Shown here: one piece after another, positions 5,631 to 27,391 of the stretch
Layout: each line of letters opens with the position of its first letter
Numbering within the stretch: position 1 is the stretch's first letter
Virus record (IMG/VR): IMGVR_UViG_3300047481_001941
Coordinates: 1 to 30,586 of that record
Length of the DNA stretch: 30,586 nucleotides
Direction: 5' to 3' (one strand)
Origin: a virus
Made by a program: the position numbers and the translations under genes
Notes under the pieces: model-generated
Seen by the model: the letters and a program-made list of their open reading frames with translations, nothing else
Told to the model about the DNA's origin: nothing
Databases searched by the model: none

Positions 5631-5655
5631 GAGACCTGTGAAGGTCTCTTTTTTT
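5631..5655 (+). terminator. Rho-independent terminator fused to a late promoter
   Basis: GAGACC (5631-5636) and GGTCTC (5643-5648) flank a 6-nt loop and are followed by seven T (5649-5655). The last T is also the first base of TATAAATA (5655-5662). Confidence 0.85.
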
Positions 5656-5662
5656 ATAAATA
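5655..5662 (+). promoter_or_regulatory. Late promoter TATAAATA before the HNH gene
   Basis: This is a perfect T4 late consensus that begins with the final T of the preceding terminator. It lies 29 nt before the ATG at 5692. Confidence 0.55.
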
Positions 5663-5691
5663 GTTATGTAGTAGACACAGTAGCAGTAAGA

Positions 5692-6270
5692 ATGAAACAT
5701 AAACATCATATTGTTCCAAGACATATGGGTGGAACTGACGACCCTTCTAATCTTATTGAACTAACTGTGGAAGAACACGCAGAGGCACACAGAGAGTTGT
5801 GGGAACAATATGGTAATATCAAAGATTATTGTGCTTGGAAAGGTTTAGAAGGAACTATTGGTAAAGAAGAAATTGTAAGATTGCTGATGGACCCAACTGG
5901 AAGAGTTCATACAGAAGAGACCAAACAAAAGATGAGTGAAGCACATAAAGGTAAACCAAAGCACACAGAAGAAAGCAAAGAAAAATTGAGACAGTTTAGA
6001 ACTGGTGCAAAAATGAGTGATGAGCAAAAAGAAAAAATAACACAAAGTTTGATAGGAAATACAAGATGTCTTGGTAATAAACTAACAGAAGAACATAAAG
6101 AAAATCTTTCTAAAAGTATGAAAGGTAATAAAAATGCTTGTGGTCCTCAAAAAGTTAGTGAAGAGGCAAAAAGAAATAGAAGCGAAGCATCAAAAGAAAG
6201 GTGGAGAAAATATAGAGAGGCAAAAGGTCTTGACCCAAACAAACCTATTGATAAGAGATACGATAAGTAA
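5692..6270 (+). CDS. HNH homing endonuclease with NUMOD3-type repeats
   Basis: The N-terminus KHKHHIVPRHMGGTDDPSNL with LTVEEHAEAHRELWE is an HNH-type nuclease core. The rest carries helical DNA-binding repeats of the NUMOD3 kind (HTEETKQKMSEAHKGK, HTEESKEKLRQF, LTEEHKENLSKSMKGN, VSEEAKRNRSEASKERW). It would cut DNA at a homing site, probably in or near the psb genes of related phages. The ATG at 5692 was chosen because an in-frame GTG at 5638 lies in the terminator loop. It lies immediately before psbD and is much more AT-rich. No split gene is visible, so it is a free-standing homing gene. Confidence 0.88.
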   Translation: MKHKHHIVPRHMGGTDDPSNLIELTVEEHAEAHRELWEQYGNIKDYCAWKGLEGTIGKEEIVRLLMDPTGRVHTEETKQKMSEAHKGKPKHTEESKEKLRQFRTGAKMSDEQKEKITQSLIGNTRCLGNKLTEEHKENLSKSMKGNKNACGPQKVSEEAKRNRSEASKERWRKYREAKGLDPNKPIDKRYDK

Positions 6271-6334: not shown

Positions 6335-7396
6335 ATGACTTCTTCTACACTTTCAATTCCAAATCAACAAAAAGGTTGGTTTGATTTATTAGATGATTGG
6401 TTAAAAAGGGACAGGTTTGTTTTTGTTGGTTGGAGTGGTTTGCTCTTATTTCCAACAGCATATCTTGCTCTGGGTGGTTGGTTGACTGGAACAACATTTG
6501 TTTCATCGTGGTACACACACGGTATTGCTTCCAGTTATTTGGAAGGTTGCAACTTTTTGACCGCTGCGGTAAGCACCCCTGCTGACGCTATGGGTCATTC
6601 TCTTCTTCTACTTTGGGGTCCTGAGTCTCAGGGAGATTTCGTCCGCTGGTGCCAACTTGGGGGACTCTGGCCTTTTGTGGCGCTCCACGGATCTTTCGCT
6701 CTGATTGGATTTATGCTTCGCCAGTTTGAGATTGCTCGACTGGTCGGTATCAGACCCTATAATGCCATCGCATTCTCTGGTCCTATCGCTGTGTTCGTCA
6801 GCGTCTTCCTGTTGTATCCTCTAGGACAATCCAGTTGGTTCTTTGCACCATCGTTTGGTGTTGCTGCTATCTTCAGGTTCCTTCTGTTTCTTCAGGGTTT
6901 CCACAACTGGACTCTCAACCCCTTTCATATGATGGGAGTTGCTGGTATACTGGGAGGAGCACTGCTCTGTGCGATTCATGGAGCAACTGTAGAAAATACA
7001 CTTTATGAAGATGGCGATCAGTCGAATACTTTCAAAGCGTTTGAACCGACTCAAGAGGAAGAGACTTATTCTATGGTTACGGCTAACAGATTCTGGTCTC
7101 AGATCTTTGGTATTGCTTTCAGCAATAAACGTTGGTTGCACTTTTTTATGCTTTTCGTTCCAGTTATGGGCCTCTGGACTTCTTCTATTGGCATCATCGG
7201 TCTTGCTCTTAACTTACGTGCCTACGACTTTGTATCTCAGGAAGTTAGAGCGGCAGAAGATCCAGAGTTTGAAACGTTCTATACAAAGAACATCCTCCTT
7301 AATGAGGGACTTAGAGCGTGGATGGCACCAGTAGACCAGCCACACGAACAGTTTGTATTTCCAGAGGAAGTGCTCCCGAGGGGCAACGCACTCTAA
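6335..7396 (+). CDS. psbD: Photosystem II D2 protein
   Basis: D2 pairs with D1 in the photosystem II reaction centre. The 353-aa product is complete. Numbering is one ahead of the usual cyanobacterial form: Tyr161 (TyrD), His190, His198 (P680 ligand), His215 and His269 (iron ligands) are all present. The C-terminus VLPRGNAL is typical. It has its own upstream motifs and a strong terminator and is flanked on both sides by HNH genes, consistent with a cassette spread by homing and recombination. The first ~200 nt look AT-rich and phage-like while the middle looks host-like, suggesting mosaic ancestry. Phage copies help keep photosystem II running in infected cells. Confidence 0.99.
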
Positions 7397-7514: not shown

Positions 7515-7544
7515 ATAAATACTCATAAGTCGCAAGCACTTATG
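7515..7544 (+). promoter_or_regulatory. Late-type motif and start-codon hairpin
   Basis: ATAAATA (7515-7521) is followed by CATAAGT (7524-7530) and ACTTATG (7538-7544), a perfect 7-bp inverted repeat. Its right arm contains the start codon of the HNH gene. In read-through RNA the start would be hidden, whereas a late transcript starting near 7527 would lose part of the left arm. Confidence 0.5.
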
Positions 7545-7913
7545 GGACCTCTCCAATCGCCCGAAGAATACTTGTTCAATCTACAAGCAACAAGTCACTC
7601 AGAAGCAAAACGATTATGGAGAAAGCAAATAAAAGAAAGTTGGGATCATAAATGTGCTTATTGCGGTTCAGAAGAAGATTTAACTCTTGACCATGTTATT
7701 CCACAATCAAAAGGTGGGTTAGACATTACAAGAAATGTAGTATGTTGCTGCAAATCTTGTAATCAATCTAAAGGACACGATCACTGGAAATTGTGGTATG
7801 TCCAGCAAGATTTTTATTGTGAGAGAAAATTTAATTTGATAGAAGAATGGATGGCACCACCAAAACCAACTAATCTTTATGCATATCGTCCAAGGAAAAA
7901 TATTGCATATTAG
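7542..7913 (+). CDS. HNH endonuclease (zinc-binding type)
   Basis: The 123-aa protein has the canonical HNH module: CAYCG, then LTLDHVIPQSKGG (catalytic His), then NVVCCCKSCNQSKG, with two CxxC zinc knuckles. It begins MGPLQSPEEYLFNLQ. This family nicks or cuts DNA; as a free-standing gene beside psbD it is probably a homing endonuclease acting on psb alleles that lack it. It is a different subtype from the NUMOD3-type gene upstream of psbD. Start-codon access may be hairpin-controlled. Confidence 0.9.
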   Translation: MGPLQSPEEYLFNLQATSHSEAKRLWRKQIKESWDHKCAYCGSEEDLTLDHVIPQSKGGLDITRNVVCCCKSCNQSKGHDHWKLWYVQQDFYCERKFNLIEEWMAPPKPTNLYAYRPRKNIAY

Positions 7914-20176: not shown

Positions 20177-21001
20177 ATGCCTACCGCAAGGAAAATAGCA
20201 GACATTAAATCTAACTTATTGAGACCTGCACTCACATCTCATTTTGAGGTAGAGATTGGACTTCCTAGTGACGCAGCAGAATTTAGAAGATTTTTGGGTT
20301 TAAATGAAGTTCCTTATAGTATTACTGATCAAACACGATTACAATTAATGTGTTCAGAAGCAACTCTTCCGGGATCTAATATAGCTACTTTTGATGTTAA
20401 TGACAATTTTCATGGTGTAACAGAGAGACACGCATACAGAAGAATTTATGATGATCGTATTGATTTAACGTTTTATGTTGATGCTGAAAATTATCTGCCA
20501 ATTAGATTTTTTGAAACTTGGATAAAATATATTGTAGATGAAAGTAGAGTAAAAAGAAACGGTGTTGGATCTGAAGATCCTAACTATTTTTACAGGGTTA
20601 GATATCCTGAAGGTGCTGGGGGATATACTGCTAAAGGATTAAAAGTCATAAAGTTTGAAAGAGATTATAAACAAAAATTGGAATATGAGTTTATAAAATC
20701 TTTTCCAATTAGCATTACATCGATGCCAATTTCATATGATTCATCTTCTTTACTTAAATGTACAGTTTCTATGACTTATATTAGATATGTTTTAATACAA
20801 GAATCCAATAAAACAGAAACCCTTCCACAATCTAATGTTAATTTAACACCAGAACAATTAGCAAGAATTAATAGTATTTCATTTAATTCTAATGCAAATC
20901 TAGGCGTTACTCCACTTACTACTGGTGGGGTTCCTCTTTCTTCTTCACAGGCTTCTGGAAATAATGTTAGTCTCACTTTTTCTGGAGTAAGTTTACTTTG
21001 A
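20177..21001 (+). CDS. gp54-like baseplate tail-tube initiator
   Basis: The 274-aa protein has MCSEATLPGSNIATF, RIDLTFYVDAENYLPIRFFE followed by TWIKYIVDES, and FIKSFPISITSMPISYDSSS. T4 gp54 shows the same order (KMPENRLSYE, VISFRMDSEACNYRAMQDW, FTGCIPISVSAPELSYDG). The tube-fold core lies at about residues 1-220; the C-terminal 50 are Ser/Asn/Gly-rich. It would start tail-tube polymerisation. It is first in the plus-strand tail operon. Tail tube gp19 is less likely because of length and N-terminal form. Confidence 0.65.
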   Translation: MPTARKIADIKSNLLRPALTSHFEVEIGLPSDAAEFRRFLGLNEVPYSITDQTRLQLMCSEATLPGSNIATFDVNDNFHGVTERHAYRRIYDDRIDLTFYVDAENYLPIRFFETWIKYIVDESRVKRNGVGSEDPNYFYRVRYPEGAGGYTAKGLKVIKFERDYKQKLEYEFIKSFPISITSMPISYDSSSLLKCTVSMTYIRYVLIQESNKTETLPQSNVNLTPEQLARINSISFNSNANLGVTPLTTGGVPLSSSQASGNNVSLTFSGVSLL

Positions 21002-21041: not shown

Positions 21042-21761
21042 ATGCCTTTACCAAAGATTTCTACACCATCTTATGAACTTGAATTGCCATCAACTGGAGA
21101 AACAATTCAATATAGACCCTTTCTAGTTAAAGAAGAAAAACTTCTTGTGATTGCTTTAGAAAGTGAAGACACAAAGCAAATCACCACGGCGATTAAAACA
21201 GTTATCAAAAATTGTATTCTCACGAAAAGCATTAAGGTAGAATCACTTCCTACTTTTGATATCGAATATCTATTCCTCAACATTCGTGGTAAGTCTGTTG
21301 GGGAGGAACTTGAAGTTAATGTTATCTGTCCCGATGATGGAGAGACTCAAGTTCCTGTAAAGATTAATCTTGATGATATTGAAGTTCAAAAAAGTGAAGA
21401 GCATACTAACAGAATCAAACTTGATGATAATATTATGATGGAAATGAAATATCCATCTTTAGATCAGTTTATCAAAAACAACTTTGACTTTAATGATAAG
21501 AATGCGATGGATCAATCATTTGAGTTGATTGGATCTTGTATTGATAAGATTTATACTGAAGATGAAGTATGGTCTGCGGCAGACGTTACGAAAAAAGAGA
21601 TTGGTGAATTTTTAGAATCTATGAACTCTTCTCAGTTTAAAGATATTGAGAAGTTTTTTGAAACGATGCCAAAACTTTCTCATACGATTAAAGTCACAAA
21701 TCCAAATACCAAAGTTGAAAGCGAAGTTGTACTTGAGGGCTTAGCGTCTTTTTTCGCGTAG
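21042..21761 (+). CDS. 26: gp26, baseplate hub / tail assembly protein
   Basis: The 239-aa protein starts MPLPKISTPSYELELPSTGE and has IQYRPFLVKEEKLLVIALES and YLFLNIRGKSVGEELEVNVI, typical of the T4 gp26 family (PF12322). The usual label is baseplate hub subunit. The last codons (tct ttt ttc gcg tag) contain the slippery heptamer T TTT TTC at 21749-21755, and the -1 frame continues into the next ORF. With tape measure following, this mirrors lambda G and GT tail chaperones. I therefore consider that gp26 may be a tail-assembly chaperone with a frameshifted long form of 303 aa. Confidence 0.92.
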   Translation: MPLPKISTPSYELELPSTGETIQYRPFLVKEEKLLVIALESEDTKQITTAIKTVIKNCILTKSIKVESLPTFDIEYLFLNIRGKSVGEELEVNVICPDDGETQVPVKINLDDIEVQKSEEHTNRIKLDDNIMMEMKYPSLDQFIKNNFDFNDKNAMDQSFELIGSCIDKIYTEDEVWSAADVTKKEIGEFLESMNSSQFKDIEKFFETMPKLSHTIKVTNPNTKVESEVVLEGLASFFA

Positions 21762-21779
21762 CGATGATCCATATGGATC
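21749..21779 (+). promoter_or_regulatory. Candidate -1 frameshift site joining gp26 to the gp51-like ORF
   Basis: T TTT TTC (21749-21755) is in gp26 phase, two codons before the stop. After a -1 slip the reading continues CGC GTA GCG ATG into the next ORF with no stop. GATCC (21766-21770) and GGATC (21775-21779) form a small stem 10 nt downstream. The second ORF lacks a Shine-Dalgarno sequence. Confidence 0.65.
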
Positions 21780-21952
21780 TTGAAAACTATTTTCGTTTAA
21801 ACTTTTCCTTAATGCAGTACCATAAATACTCTTTATGGGAGATTGAAAATATGATTCCTTGGGAAAGAGACATCTATGTTGCATTATTACAACAGCATCT
21901 TGAAGAAGAGCAACTAAAACAACAGCAGCAGATGAGTAATGCCCATTTCTAA
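21764..21952 (+). CDS. 51: gp51-like hub assembly ORF (probably also the -1 extension of gp26)
   Basis: The 62-aa ORF reads MDLENYFRLNFSLMQYHKYS, then LWEIENMIPWERDIYVALLQ and QHLEEE with a Gln-rich tail. The WERDIYVALL segment is the pattern I associate with short gp51/tail-chaperone downstream domains. No SD precedes either ATG (21764 or 21773). It is in the -1 frame of gp26 and reachable from its slippery site. Its 3' end overlaps the tape measure start by 14 nt. Independent translation by coupling remains possible. The gp51 name is by position and likeness. Confidence 0.7.
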   Translation: MIHMDLENYFRLNFSLMQYHKYSLWEIENMIPWERDIYVALLQQHLEEEQLKQQQQMSNAHF

Positions 21953-24367: not shown

Positions 24368-27300
24368 ATGGCTATCTCTGCAGATAAACTTTTAGACAGA
24401 CCATCAGAACTTCACAGACGCTATGGCGGAAGACTTGCTATGCAAAAGTCTCTACAAGAAAAGATGGTGGGAGGAGGTCCTGCAAATATTGTTCTTACTA
24501 AAAAATCCATAAAAAATATTGAGATTATAAAGGTCAAATTTGTTCAAATAGAAAATATTTTCAAAGGAACTCTTGCCTCAGAAAAGAAAGCACTTGATGA
24601 AAAGAAGAGAAGGGAAAGTAATACTAGACGCGAAAAGCAAGAAGAAAAATTAGAAACTAAACCAAATGCCGAAAAAGGTTCTGTAAAGATGCCTGCCTCT
24701 CCAAGGATGGGTATTCTTGACTGGATAAAAAACTTTATAGGAAATATACTTCTTGGTTACTTTGCAGTTAGATTGATTGATCATCTCCCCAAGATAATGC
24801 CTATTGTAAAATTCTTGGGAAATGCTGCAGACTTTATTATAGATGTTGGTGGAAAACTTTTAAACGGACTGGTGACGTTTATTGATTGGGGATACAAAGC
24901 CTATGATGCTACTCGTGGATTTATAAAAGGTCTAGGTGGAGAAAACTTTGCTCAGGGATTTGATAAGTTTGTTGGAGCGATTGATACCACTTTATTTTTG
25001 GCAACTGCTATTGCGGGCGATCTTCTTTTAGAATCTTTATCTGGTGATGGTGGAGGTGGTCTTGGAGATATTGTTGGCGATCAACTTAAGAAAAGAGGAG
25101 CACAAAAAGTTGCTACAAGTGTCGCTGGAAAGGCAGGAACTGCTGCAAAAGCAGGTGGTGTGGGTGCAGCTGCCGCCGCGGCTATCGTTGCTGGTGCAGG
25201 ACTTCTTGCATCTGCTTTGGGTGAAGGTGCATTTCAACTTAGAAAGTTTGCAGTAAAACCAATACAAAAACTTGAGGACGATCAAAAGAACGATAAAAAT
25301 CCTCTTACTAGATTTGGAAGAGGTGTTGTTTTGAATATGGTAAGACCTTTGTTTGGTCTTTTTCAAACAGTTGGATTTTTACTTGATGTTGTTGGTGCTC
25401 CATTTAGATATGCTATAGAACTTCTCCGTTATCCATTTTTGAGTGAAGAAGATAAGATAAAACAAGCAAATAATCTTGCCAAGTTTGATGCAAGAATTCG
25501 TGAAGACTTGAGGAAAGCATTAAATATGCTCACTCTTGGACTTGCATTTAAAGAAAAGGGATCCTTTGGAAACATCTATGGAAATAAAGGTTCCCAAAAA
25601 CAAATGATGGGTAAAATGGCAGGTGGTGGTATTACAAGAGGTGGTAGAAGTCAGACAGGTGCTAGAAGGACAATAGGTGGAACAAAGAAAAAGGGTCAGT
25701 ATAAAAGAGCATTAGCACAAAAACCATCTAAGATAGAAATCAAAACCGAAGATAAAACACTTAAAGAAACTGGAGAACAACTTGACAAGACCAAGTACTT
25801 TGGTCCAATCTTGGCAATCAGTTCCAAGATTATGGCAAAACAAGAACCAACACAAAAAGATTATGAGAATGTTGGTCTTGGAATCAACTTATTGATTTCC
25901 AAAGGTATTGAAGAAGATCAACTAAAGGGTGGTTTGGTTGCTGCTTTTGCTGGGGGTGGACTAGTTGATGATGAATTTTTAGAAGCAGCAGAAAAAGGAA
26001 GCGATATTACTAACTGGGTTGCTAGAACATTTAAAGGTGAAATTGAAAGTAATGCCCAAAAAACTTTAAGATTGATTAGAGAGAAAATAGATGAAAAGAA
26101 AGGTCCTGCTGGAGTTTCTGGACCTGGGCAGCCAGGGTCACCTGATATGATTAATATTCAGGGAGGGGATGTTGATTTTTGGACTCTTGTAGCAGTTGCT
26201 TCTAGAGAGGATGGAGATCCTCAAGCATGGGCTGATGTTGCACAATCAATTTATAATAGACTTGCATCTGGTGCTTATACTGGAAAGACTATTAAGGATT
26301 TAATTCTTGGACAAATGCAATATGAACCAACTTGGAAGTTTCCTAAACCAGGCGTGACAGGAAAACCAAATCAAGAATGGTATTCTATTAAAGATGCTGC
26401 TAGTGCAGGAATAGCTGCTGGTCAATCTGAAGGTGCGATGAAAAAAGTTGCAGCGGCAATTTTAGATCCAACTCTACAAAAAAATGCAAGGGAATTTATT
26501 CAAGGGAGAACTGACTTTAGAGGATATAGTGTTTCTGGGGGAGCACAAAGAAAATCTGGAGACAACTATTTTGGGTGGTACAATAACTATCGCGCAAATA
26601 AGGTAGGTTCTGTTCCTAATTTTGGTGCAACTGCTACAACTGGTGGATCTGGACCTGGAGGATCATTTGTTGGTGGAGGGACAGGTTCTGGATATGGAAC
26701 TGGTGGTGTAAAGATTGCGGGTGATTTGGGTGACTATATGAAAGCAAATCGTGGAAAAATTGGAGTAACTGGTGATATTCACCAGCACCCAAGACACCCT
26801 AAACAGGAAAAAAGAAATTATTTTTCATATCATAACCAAAATAGAGCACTTGATATTGGTGGATATGGACCTGCCCATCCAAGCTCAGGTGGAAGAGACG
26901 AACAAGCACCTGTTATCAGAGCATTATTGGAGTGGAATAAAAGAAATGGATATCAACCAGTAGAAATAATTCATGGATCACCTGCTTTCAAAGGTCTGGG
27001 TAAATATGAATCTGGTCCAAGAGATCTTCACTCAAATCACGTTCACGTTGCTTATCACAGAGGTAAGGTTAGATCTGGTAAGGAAACCATAGCAAGAATT
27101 CTAAAGGACGAAAAAGTTTTAGATCCAGATACCTCTAAAGCACTTGACCAAATAAATCCTTTGCTTGCATACCAACTCAATAAAGCTTCAACAAAAGAAG
27201 GTGTTCTTAAAGTACTTCAGTCCTATGCTGGTTATGAACTACCATACGCAGAACCTCAGATTATTGAAGTTCCTGTTGAAGTTTCCTCTGGAGATATGGG

Positions 27301-27391
27301 GGATTATTCTAGTTCAAGTGCTGGAGAATCTAGATTTATTCCAATCTTTAGTGAAAATGATTCTTTTGAAAGTCTGTATGTTGGTGGGTAA
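24368..27391 (+). CDS. Tape-measure-like tail lysin with SleB-like and M15-like domains
   Basis: This 1007-aa protein has a helical charged N-terminus, a hydrophobic part (about 110-300; ILDWIKNFIGNILLGYFAVR) resembling the upstream tape measure, and Gly-rich repeats. At about 605-740 there is a cell-wall hydrolase region (VAVASREDGDPQAWADVAQS, IYNRL, YNNYR), SleB-like. At about 800-895 is a zinc peptidase of M15 type: YHNQNRALDIGG (Hx6D) and SNHVHVAYH (HxH). It could cut peptidoglycan glycan and peptide bonds during DNA entry. AGGAG precedes the ATG. It probably travels in the virion tail. Confidence 0.85.
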   Translation: MAISADKLLDRPSELHRRYGGRLAMQKSLQEKMVGGGPANIVLTKKSIKNIEIIKVKFVQIENIFKGTLASEKKALDEKKRRESNTRREKQEEKLETKPNAEKGSVKMPASPRMGILDWIKNFIGNILLGYFAVRLIDHLPKIMPIVKFLGNAADFIIDVGGKLLNGLVTFIDWGYKAYDATRGFIKGLGGENFAQGFDKFVGAIDTTLFLATAIAGDLLLESLSGDGGGGLGDIVGDQLKKRGAQKVATSVAGKAGTAAKAGGVGAAAAAAIVAGAGLLASALGEGAFQLRKFAVKPIQKLEDDQKNDKNPLTRFGRGVVLNMVRPLFGLFQTVGFLLDVVGAPFRYAIELLRYPFLSEEDKIKQANNLAKFDARIREDLRKALNMLTLGLAFKEKGSFGNIYGNKGSQKQMMGKMAGGGITRGGRSQTGARRTIGGTKKKGQYKRALAQKPSKIEIKTEDKTLKETGEQLDKTKYFGPILAISSKIMAKQEPTQKDYENVGLGINLLISKGIEEDQLKGGLVAAFAGGGLVDDEFLEAAEKGSDITNWVARTFKGEIESNAQKTLRLIREKIDEKKGPAGVSGPGQPGSPDMINIQGGDVDFWTLVAVASREDGDPQAWADVAQSIYNRLASGAYTGKTIKDLILGQMQYEPTWKFPKPGVTGKPNQEWYSIKDAASAGIAAGQSEGAMKKVAAAILDPTLQKNAREFIQGRTDFRGYSVSGGAQRKSGDNYFGWYNNYRANKVGSVPNFGATATTGGSGPGGSFVGGGTGSGYGTGGVKIAGDLGDYMKANRGKIGVTGDIHQHPRHPKQEKRNYFSYHNQNRALDIGGYGPAHPSSGGRDEQAPVIRALLEWNKRNGYQPVEIIHGSPAFKGLGKYESGPRDLHSNHVHVAYHRGKVRSGKETIARILKDEKVLDPDTSKALDQINPLLAYQLNKASTKEGVLKVLQSYAGYELPYAEPQIIEVPVEVSSGDMGDYSSSSAGESRFIPIFSENDSFESLYVGG

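Follow-up and report, generated by a model that had tools for sequence, protein, structure and literature searches.

Does gene 26 of a T4-like cyanophage simply end at its stop codon, or does a -1 frameshift just before that stop join it to the short gp51-like open reading frame (ORF) that follows? The question is raised by the window, by which we mean the whole stretch of 30,586 nucleotides that was analysed here and that is identical to IMG/VR virus record IMGVR_UViG_3300047481_001941. The window matched PF00124 twice, representing two photosystem reaction-centre genes, which we take to be psbA and psbD, and its gp26 was 84% identical to gp26 of Synechococcus phage S-SM2; on these grounds it is a fragment of a T4-like cyanophage genome. 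The frameshift signal at the end of gp26 is real and well conserved, and the frameshift that it very probably directs is already known in kind rather than new.

Sequences compared

The comparison comprised IMG/VR loci (80 + 80 + 11 + 7 + 5), 14 loci from named phages and the window itself, giving 198 sequences, all of which had a gp26 match. The gp26 stop codon was reached in 195 of the 198; L068, L074 and L183, in which gp26 is cut by the end of the contig, were left out. A few genomes (e.g. HTVC008M and CC31) were present twice in the set. In the relatives, gp26 was assumed to begin where its tblastn match begins, and the true start may differ in distant loci. A search for relatives with the Vibrio 6E35 gp26 as query found none.

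The 185 loci that carried a heptamer (see below) were collapsed at 90% identity into 97 representatives (90 with TTTTTTC and 7 with TTTTTTT) and at 50% identity into 14 clusters (9 with TTTTTTC and 5 with TTTTTTT). Because the sequences are related, loci should not be counted as independent events, and it is safer to rely on the 14 clusters at 50% identity. Since the 97 representatives are a subset of the 185 heptamer loci, the T that precedes TTT is true of them by selection; the unselected counts are 185/195 and 161/161. A core of 81 representatives had at least 50% identity to the window, the range in which every locus has the heptamer, and 79 of these 81 had enough downstream sequence for the analysis of stimulators. 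Profile comparisons of T4 gp26 and gp51 are quoted in local alignment mode.

Organisation of the locus

The features of the locus, with the matches on which their assignments are based, are listed in Table 1.

Table 1. Features of the gp26 locus and its neighbours in the window (positions are those of the window).
Feature	Position	Strand	Evidence
Tail-tube-like gene, upstream of gp26	20177..21001	+	phrog_45 tail tube E 3.1e-34; PF23849 E 2.8e-12
gp26 (239 aa), putative short form (TAC-N) of the tail assembly chaperone	21042..21761	+	PF12322 E 2.8e-78; phrog_150 E 6.9e-83; AlphaFold residues 1-86 resemble HK97 2ob9, Z 7.8
SD-like GAGGG, putative dnaX-type stimulator, 9 nt 5′ of heptamer	21735..21739	+	SD-like purine motif in 93/97 representatives; Glu232 GAG in 63/79
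Slippery heptamer T TTT TTC	21749..21755	+	In phase; TTTTTT[C/T] in phase in 185/195 loci; codons 237 and 238 jointly top for synonymous constraint among 222 scored
Predicted C-terminal domain (TAC-C) of the long form, encoded by 65 codons in the -1 frame	21755..21952	+	Takes in the 'gp51-like ORF' 21764-21952; phrog_634 E 6.3e-27; phrog_150 positions 241-281 E 2.7e-5; family profile vs T4 gp51 residues 200-246 E 2.9e-7
Possible stem-loop GATCC-ATAT-GGATC, 10 nt 3′ of heptamer	21766..21779	+	77% of pair cells pair, 79 sequences; suggestive only
Tape-measure-like protein, 805 aa	21939..24356	+	Best match phrog_35029 (unknown function) E 4e-58; three tail length tape measure phrogs weaker, best E 1.2e-4; position

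The gp26 gene scored 263 bits against PF12322, for which the curated cut-off is 24.5, and it was the single PF12322 gene found in the 30.6-kb record. Its 3′-end reads TCT TTT TTC GCG TAG, with the TAG at 21,759–21,761, which confirms in the sequence that a T TTT TTC lies in phase two codons before the stop, as originally predicted. Following a -1 slip this is read as TTT TTT CGC GTA GCG ATG and onwards, and the frame is open up to a stop at 21,950–21,952. Reading of the shifted frame therefore bore out the prediction that it runs into a 62-amino-acid ORF (21,764–21,952) and that the gp26-gp51 fusion is a 303-amino-acid product.

The 62-amino-acid ORF shares 14 nt with the tape-measure-like ORF, which agrees with the predicted overlap between its 3′-end and the start of the tape measure gene, the identity of the 805-amino-acid ORF as a tape measure gene being suggested by weak matches (best E 1.2e-4 to a tape measure phrog) and by position. 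The next long ORF starts before the -1 ORF ends in 79 of the 91 representatives listed (97 in all), starts at or after its end in nine and was not found in three.

A 1007-amino-acid ORF 3′ of the tape-measure-like gene (24,368–27,391) had no Pfam match at E 0.001. Elsewhere in the window, two HNH-type nuclease ORFs at 5638–6270 and 7542–7913 (NUMOD3+HNH and HNH_5, respectively) flank the second photosystem reaction-centre gene (6335–7396), and these are likely to be homing nucleases.

The downstream -1 frame

The gp51-like ORF could be an independent small gene that is expressed by translational coupling, in which case ribosomes that end at the gp26 TAG would reinitiate at the ATG at 21,764, 2 nt further on. 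Public records do annotate the gp51-like ORF separately, and an ATG is the third or fourth -1-frame codon after Phe-Phe in 60 of the 97 representatives. However, the ATG position of the window (residue 4 after Phe-Phe) is occupied by Met in 58 and by Leu in 35 of the 97, and 16 have no ATG within the first 18 codons of the -1 frame. A Shine-Dalgarno (SD)-like 4-mer was found before the first -1-frame ATG in 2/97, compared with 48/97 before the start of the gp26 match, such that the lack of a Shine-Dalgarno sequence claimed for the ORF in the window extends to 95 of the 97 representatives. The -1-frame residues ahead of the supposed start are also conserved, being R in 86/97 followed by I, V or L in 97/97; an independent gene leaves both these residues and the conserved heptamer unexplained. 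Furthermore, T4 gp51 has its N-terminal domain within the same protein, and the ORF of the window matched phrog_634 and, in addition, the C-terminus of phrog_150, the gp26 family. Independent expression through coupling is therefore very unlikely, and judged on this sequence evidence the downstream ORF does not constitute a separate gene.

Conservation of the slippery heptamer

TTTTTTC occurs 26 times in the window against an expectation of 25.66, and the count was dropped as evidence, being at chance frequency. What is above chance is the place of the heptamer and its conservation, not its presence. An in-phase TTTTTT[C/T] together with a stop-free fusion was found in 185 of the 195 loci that reach the gp26 stop. 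TTTTTTC started 10 nt before the stop in 169 of the 195 and 7 nt before it in one, TTTTTTT was present in 15 and neither was present in 10. The -1 frame of four of the 185 heptamer loci ended with the contig before a -1 stop; the frame of the other 181 extended 53–64 codons beyond the gp26 stop. The original prediction had set against itself any close relative in which the heptamer or the open -1 frame had been lost. No such relative was seen, as TTTTTTC was equally far from the stop in all 161 loci that were at least 50% identical to the window. The heptamer was kept even in six named phages with a gp26 that is only 24–31% identical.

The ten loci without the heptamer were seven of the T4/CC31 type, in which the genes are separate, Aeromonas phage phiA8-29, Vibrio phage K452 and L176, in which gp26 is truncated. 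The gp26 reading of L176, an IMG/VR contig, ends at 162 amino acids despite 99% identity to HTVC008M; either an error in the contig or a broken copy probably accounts for this. Another ten named phages were also inspected. TTTTTTC was found in XZ1, D479, S-CRM01 and RN05-S and TTTTTTT in Melnitz-3 and phiM7, the heptamer was absent from Vi01, VAP7 and D532, and phiKp_23 has a duplicated layout instead.

The same fusion could in principle be translated from an edited mRNA, if transcriptional slippage on the T run added or lost a base. Longer runs in some relatives, such as the 8 T of HTVC008M, would suit this explanation, but the usual run is just 6 T closed by C (90/97). Six T closed by C is the pattern of tandem-tRNA slippage and not a long homopolymer, and we consider slippage during transcription to be extremely improbable.

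Codon-level constraint at Phe-Phe

Codons 237 and 238 of gp26 were TTT and TTC in 81/81 core representatives, the set over which the 222 codons were scored and these two shared first place for synonymous constraint. At other positions of the 97 genes TTT encodes Phe 788 times and TTC, the rarer Phe codon, 284 times, and only 2 of the 89 other Phe-Phe pairs in the same genes are written TTT-TTC. The codon that precedes the TTT-TTC of the heptamer varies (AGT, TCT, GAT, AAT, GGT and GCT). The T4/CC31-type loci (7/7, long and short forms separate) keep Phe-Phe near the end of gp26 and write it TTC-TTC (4) or TTC-TTT (3), neither of which is slippery. It is scarcely credible that gp26 function or base composition alone maintains the Phe-Phe end and the T run, with no frameshift. 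In favour of this view, FF237-238 is invariant as protein in a 25-sequence alignment and persists in T4-type gp26, and the count of TTTTTTC in the window is what chance predicts. However, a protein constraint does not fix TTT-TTC plus the preceding T, Phe-Phe being seldom written in this way elsewhere and being written with other codons by T4-type gp26. The -1 frame, moreover, continues beyond the stop without interruption and codes for a conserved domain.

Candidate stimulators

The SD-like purine motif ends 7–10 nt 5′ of the heptamer in 93 of the 97 representatives. Its GG is set by an invariant Gly, and its conservation is therefore partly a protein constraint. The free codon choice within the motif is that of Glu232, which is GAG in 63/79 and ranks at the top of the 28 Glu columns (median 27%, next 61%). 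The spacing of the element resembles that in E. coli dnaX.

The paired positions of the downstream stem-loop formed pairs in 77% of pair cells across the 79 sequences, compared with 11–56% when the structure was slid, and the weakest pair was present in 51/79. Folding of the downstream 60 nt against shuffles gave a mean z of -1.8, and a control stretch gave 0.03 (40 of the 79 sequences folded). These results are suggestive of a stem-loop that may act as a stimulator 10 nt 3′ of the heptamer. The single match from a search of Rfam around the heptamer was CRISPR-repeat-like, below threshold and on the opposite strand; it was taken as chance.

Homology to T4 gp26 and gp51

Alignment of T4 gp51 with the profile of the fusion covered residues 14–246 of 249 (probability 98.7, E 4.7e-16). 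T4 gp51 matched both parts of the fusion, the N part with an E of 2.9e-10 and the C part with an E of 2.9e-7. T4 gp26 aligned with the short form (E 1.1e-26) and had no match to the C part (E 0.25). The two T4 proteins also aligned with each other by profile (E 3.5e-11). As controls, 60 column-shuffled profiles gave a best probability of 6.1 and a best E of 0.006, and five unrelated proteins of the window gave probabilities of at most 0.2. T4 gp51 matched PF12322 over residues 1–201 (E 3.9e-52), a family that T4 gp26 also matches, and it matched phrog_150 across almost its full length. A structure model of a CC31-type gp51 (L192) had a mean pLDDT of 60, which was too weak for use.

T4 gp26 thus corresponds to the short form only and T4 gp51 to the fusion, and T4 therefore encodes the long form as a separate gene. 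On these profile matches, the short and long forms are made from two genes in T4 and from one gene plus a frameshift in the phage of the window. Accordingly, the prediction of a frameshift for T4-type gp26 does not extend to T4 itself. Vladimirov, Gautam and Davidson are said to have found frameshifting conserved in several T4-like groups and genes 26 and 51 separate in T4.

Other layouts

Klebsiella phage phiKp_23 (Slopekvirus; L205:1501-2795) encodes a long gp51-like gene followed in tandem by an overlapping short gp26-like gene, the second gene being judged by eye. By its sequence this layout is a second form of the two-gene solution, unlike the divergent genes of T4. In place of the heptamer, Vi01, VAP7, phiA8-29, K452 and D532 carry NTT TTY, with one or two codons between it and the stop. 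The -1 frame of these five is open into a similar C-terminal stretch, which contains MPWHL in four and APWQV in VAP7. The NTT TTY of these Ackermannviridae-type phages may be a weaker, possibly one-tRNA, slip site.

A broader scheme can be drawn from these layouts, which we offer tentatively, doubting it slightly more than we credit it. The Kyanoviridae and a large part of the T4 superfamily would have retained a dnaX-like three-part signal (GAGGG 9 nt upstream, TTTTTTC and a hairpin 10 nt downstream). Gene duplication would have replaced the frameshift in two layouts, namely the divergent genes 26 and 51 of T4 and CC31 and the tandem overlapping long and short genes of phiKp_23, and the site would have been relaxed to the weaker NTT-TTY in the Ackermannviridae-type phages.

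Possible chaperone fold and proposed mechanism

The AlphaFold model of gp26 had a mean pLDDT of 85. A Foldseek search of the PDB with this model placed the HK97 tail assembly chaperone (2ob9) first of 75 matches, yet with an E of 0.34. On re-alignment 3fgx, 2ob9 and 3klu led with Z of 7.8, 7.8 and 7.3, respectively, over approximately the first 90 residues, and the next entry had 4.9; a VIA Z under 8, as between gp26 and 2ob9, is middling by the tool's own scale, and of the three entries only 2ob9 is labelled as a tail assembly chaperone. Comparison of the gp26 profile with the sequences of the PDB gave nothing significant; the best match, a ribosome hibernation factor, had an E of 0.12 and was not used. 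By this middling score, the modelled N-terminal domain of gp26 appears to resemble the HK97 tail assembly chaperone.

This locus very probably gives rise to two co-N-terminal tail assembly chaperones through programmed -1 frameshifting of ribosomes at T TTT TTC, because the heptamer is conserved and under synonymous constraint, the downstream ATG is lost in relatives, the fusion is homologous to T4 gp51 and gp26 appears to resemble the HK97 chaperone. The same evidence supports the original reading of the gene order (tube-like gene, gp26, frameshift, gp51-like ORF and tape measure) as a mirror of lambda G/GT/H.

From the site, its open frame and the layout ahead of the tape-measure-like gene we infer the frameshifting itself, its low rate and the protein contacts as follows, the chaperoning of the tape measure by both forms being modelled on lambda gpG/gpGT. 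Most ribosomes would terminate at the TAG and release gp26, the short form. A minority would pause over the heptamer and, with tRNA-Phe occupying the P site as well as the A site, slip back by one base before translating 65 further codons to give the 303-amino-acid long form. On the model of lambda G/GT, the tape measure protein encoded by the next gene would be coated by many short and few long chaperones, and the long form would recruit tail tube subunits through its C-terminal domain.

Comparison with known systems

The original prediction held that such a frameshift was undescribed for T4-type gp26. This does not stand, as later papers, in the passages available of PMC10885494 and PMC12846349, already credit Vladimirov, Gautam and Davidson (Virology 2022, 566:9-15) with the description of short and long chaperone forms in T4-like phages. 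The same passages credit that study with poly-T -1 frameshift signals in T4-like TAC-N genes (PMC12846349) and with some T4-like phages that have a short chaperone gene and a long fused gene in place of frameshifting (PMC10885494). Among the literature matches listed, in which subscription papers are thinly covered, no title or start of an abstract concerned a gp26/gp51 frameshift in cyanophages. Data on conservation across the cyanophages, the SD-like element and the hairpin were likewise absent among the matches listed, and may be contained in Vladimirov et al. 2022.

Cyanophage gp51 has been reported, in the part of PMC3037559 available, to be approximately 20% as long as other gp51 proteins and to be without the first 200 or so residues. 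Frameshifting would explain this, since the missing part would be gp26. The cyanophage records that were examined annotate two separate genes, for which one joined annotation is preferable, and the present reading gives a function to two proteins that are publicly named as a baseplate hub subunit and a hub assembly catalyst.

In lambda, gpG and gpGT chaperone the tape measure protein, and long-tailed phages are stated to make two chaperone forms 'except T4' (PMC5009743, in the text available). The gp26 and gp51 found here bear on T4 as the apparent exception to this two-chaperone rule. The lambda G/GT heptamer differs from T TTT TTC. For other phage families, the Vandenendeviridae and Andersonviridae, the available part of PMC12846349 proposes that a poly-T motif ahead of the tape measure gene directs a -1 frameshift; the C-terminal part of their chaperone is annotated as a hypothetical protein, and their motif is GTTTTT, unlike the TTTTTTC of the window.

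For T4 itself, the sections available of PMC3004832 describe gp51 as an essential protein that has no known function and is missing from the final particle, list gp26 and gp51 as hub assembly chaperones, and state that genetic studies support gp26 being in the hub. The absence of gp51 from the particle and the listing of both proteins as hub assembly chaperones fit a transient chaperone, whereas gp26 in the hub does not. T4 is like the window in that its gp26 is homologous to the short form and its gp51 to the fusion, both being members of PF12322; it is unlike the window in that genes 26 and 51 are separate, divergently oriented paralogues and the Phe-Phe codons of its gp26 are not slippery.
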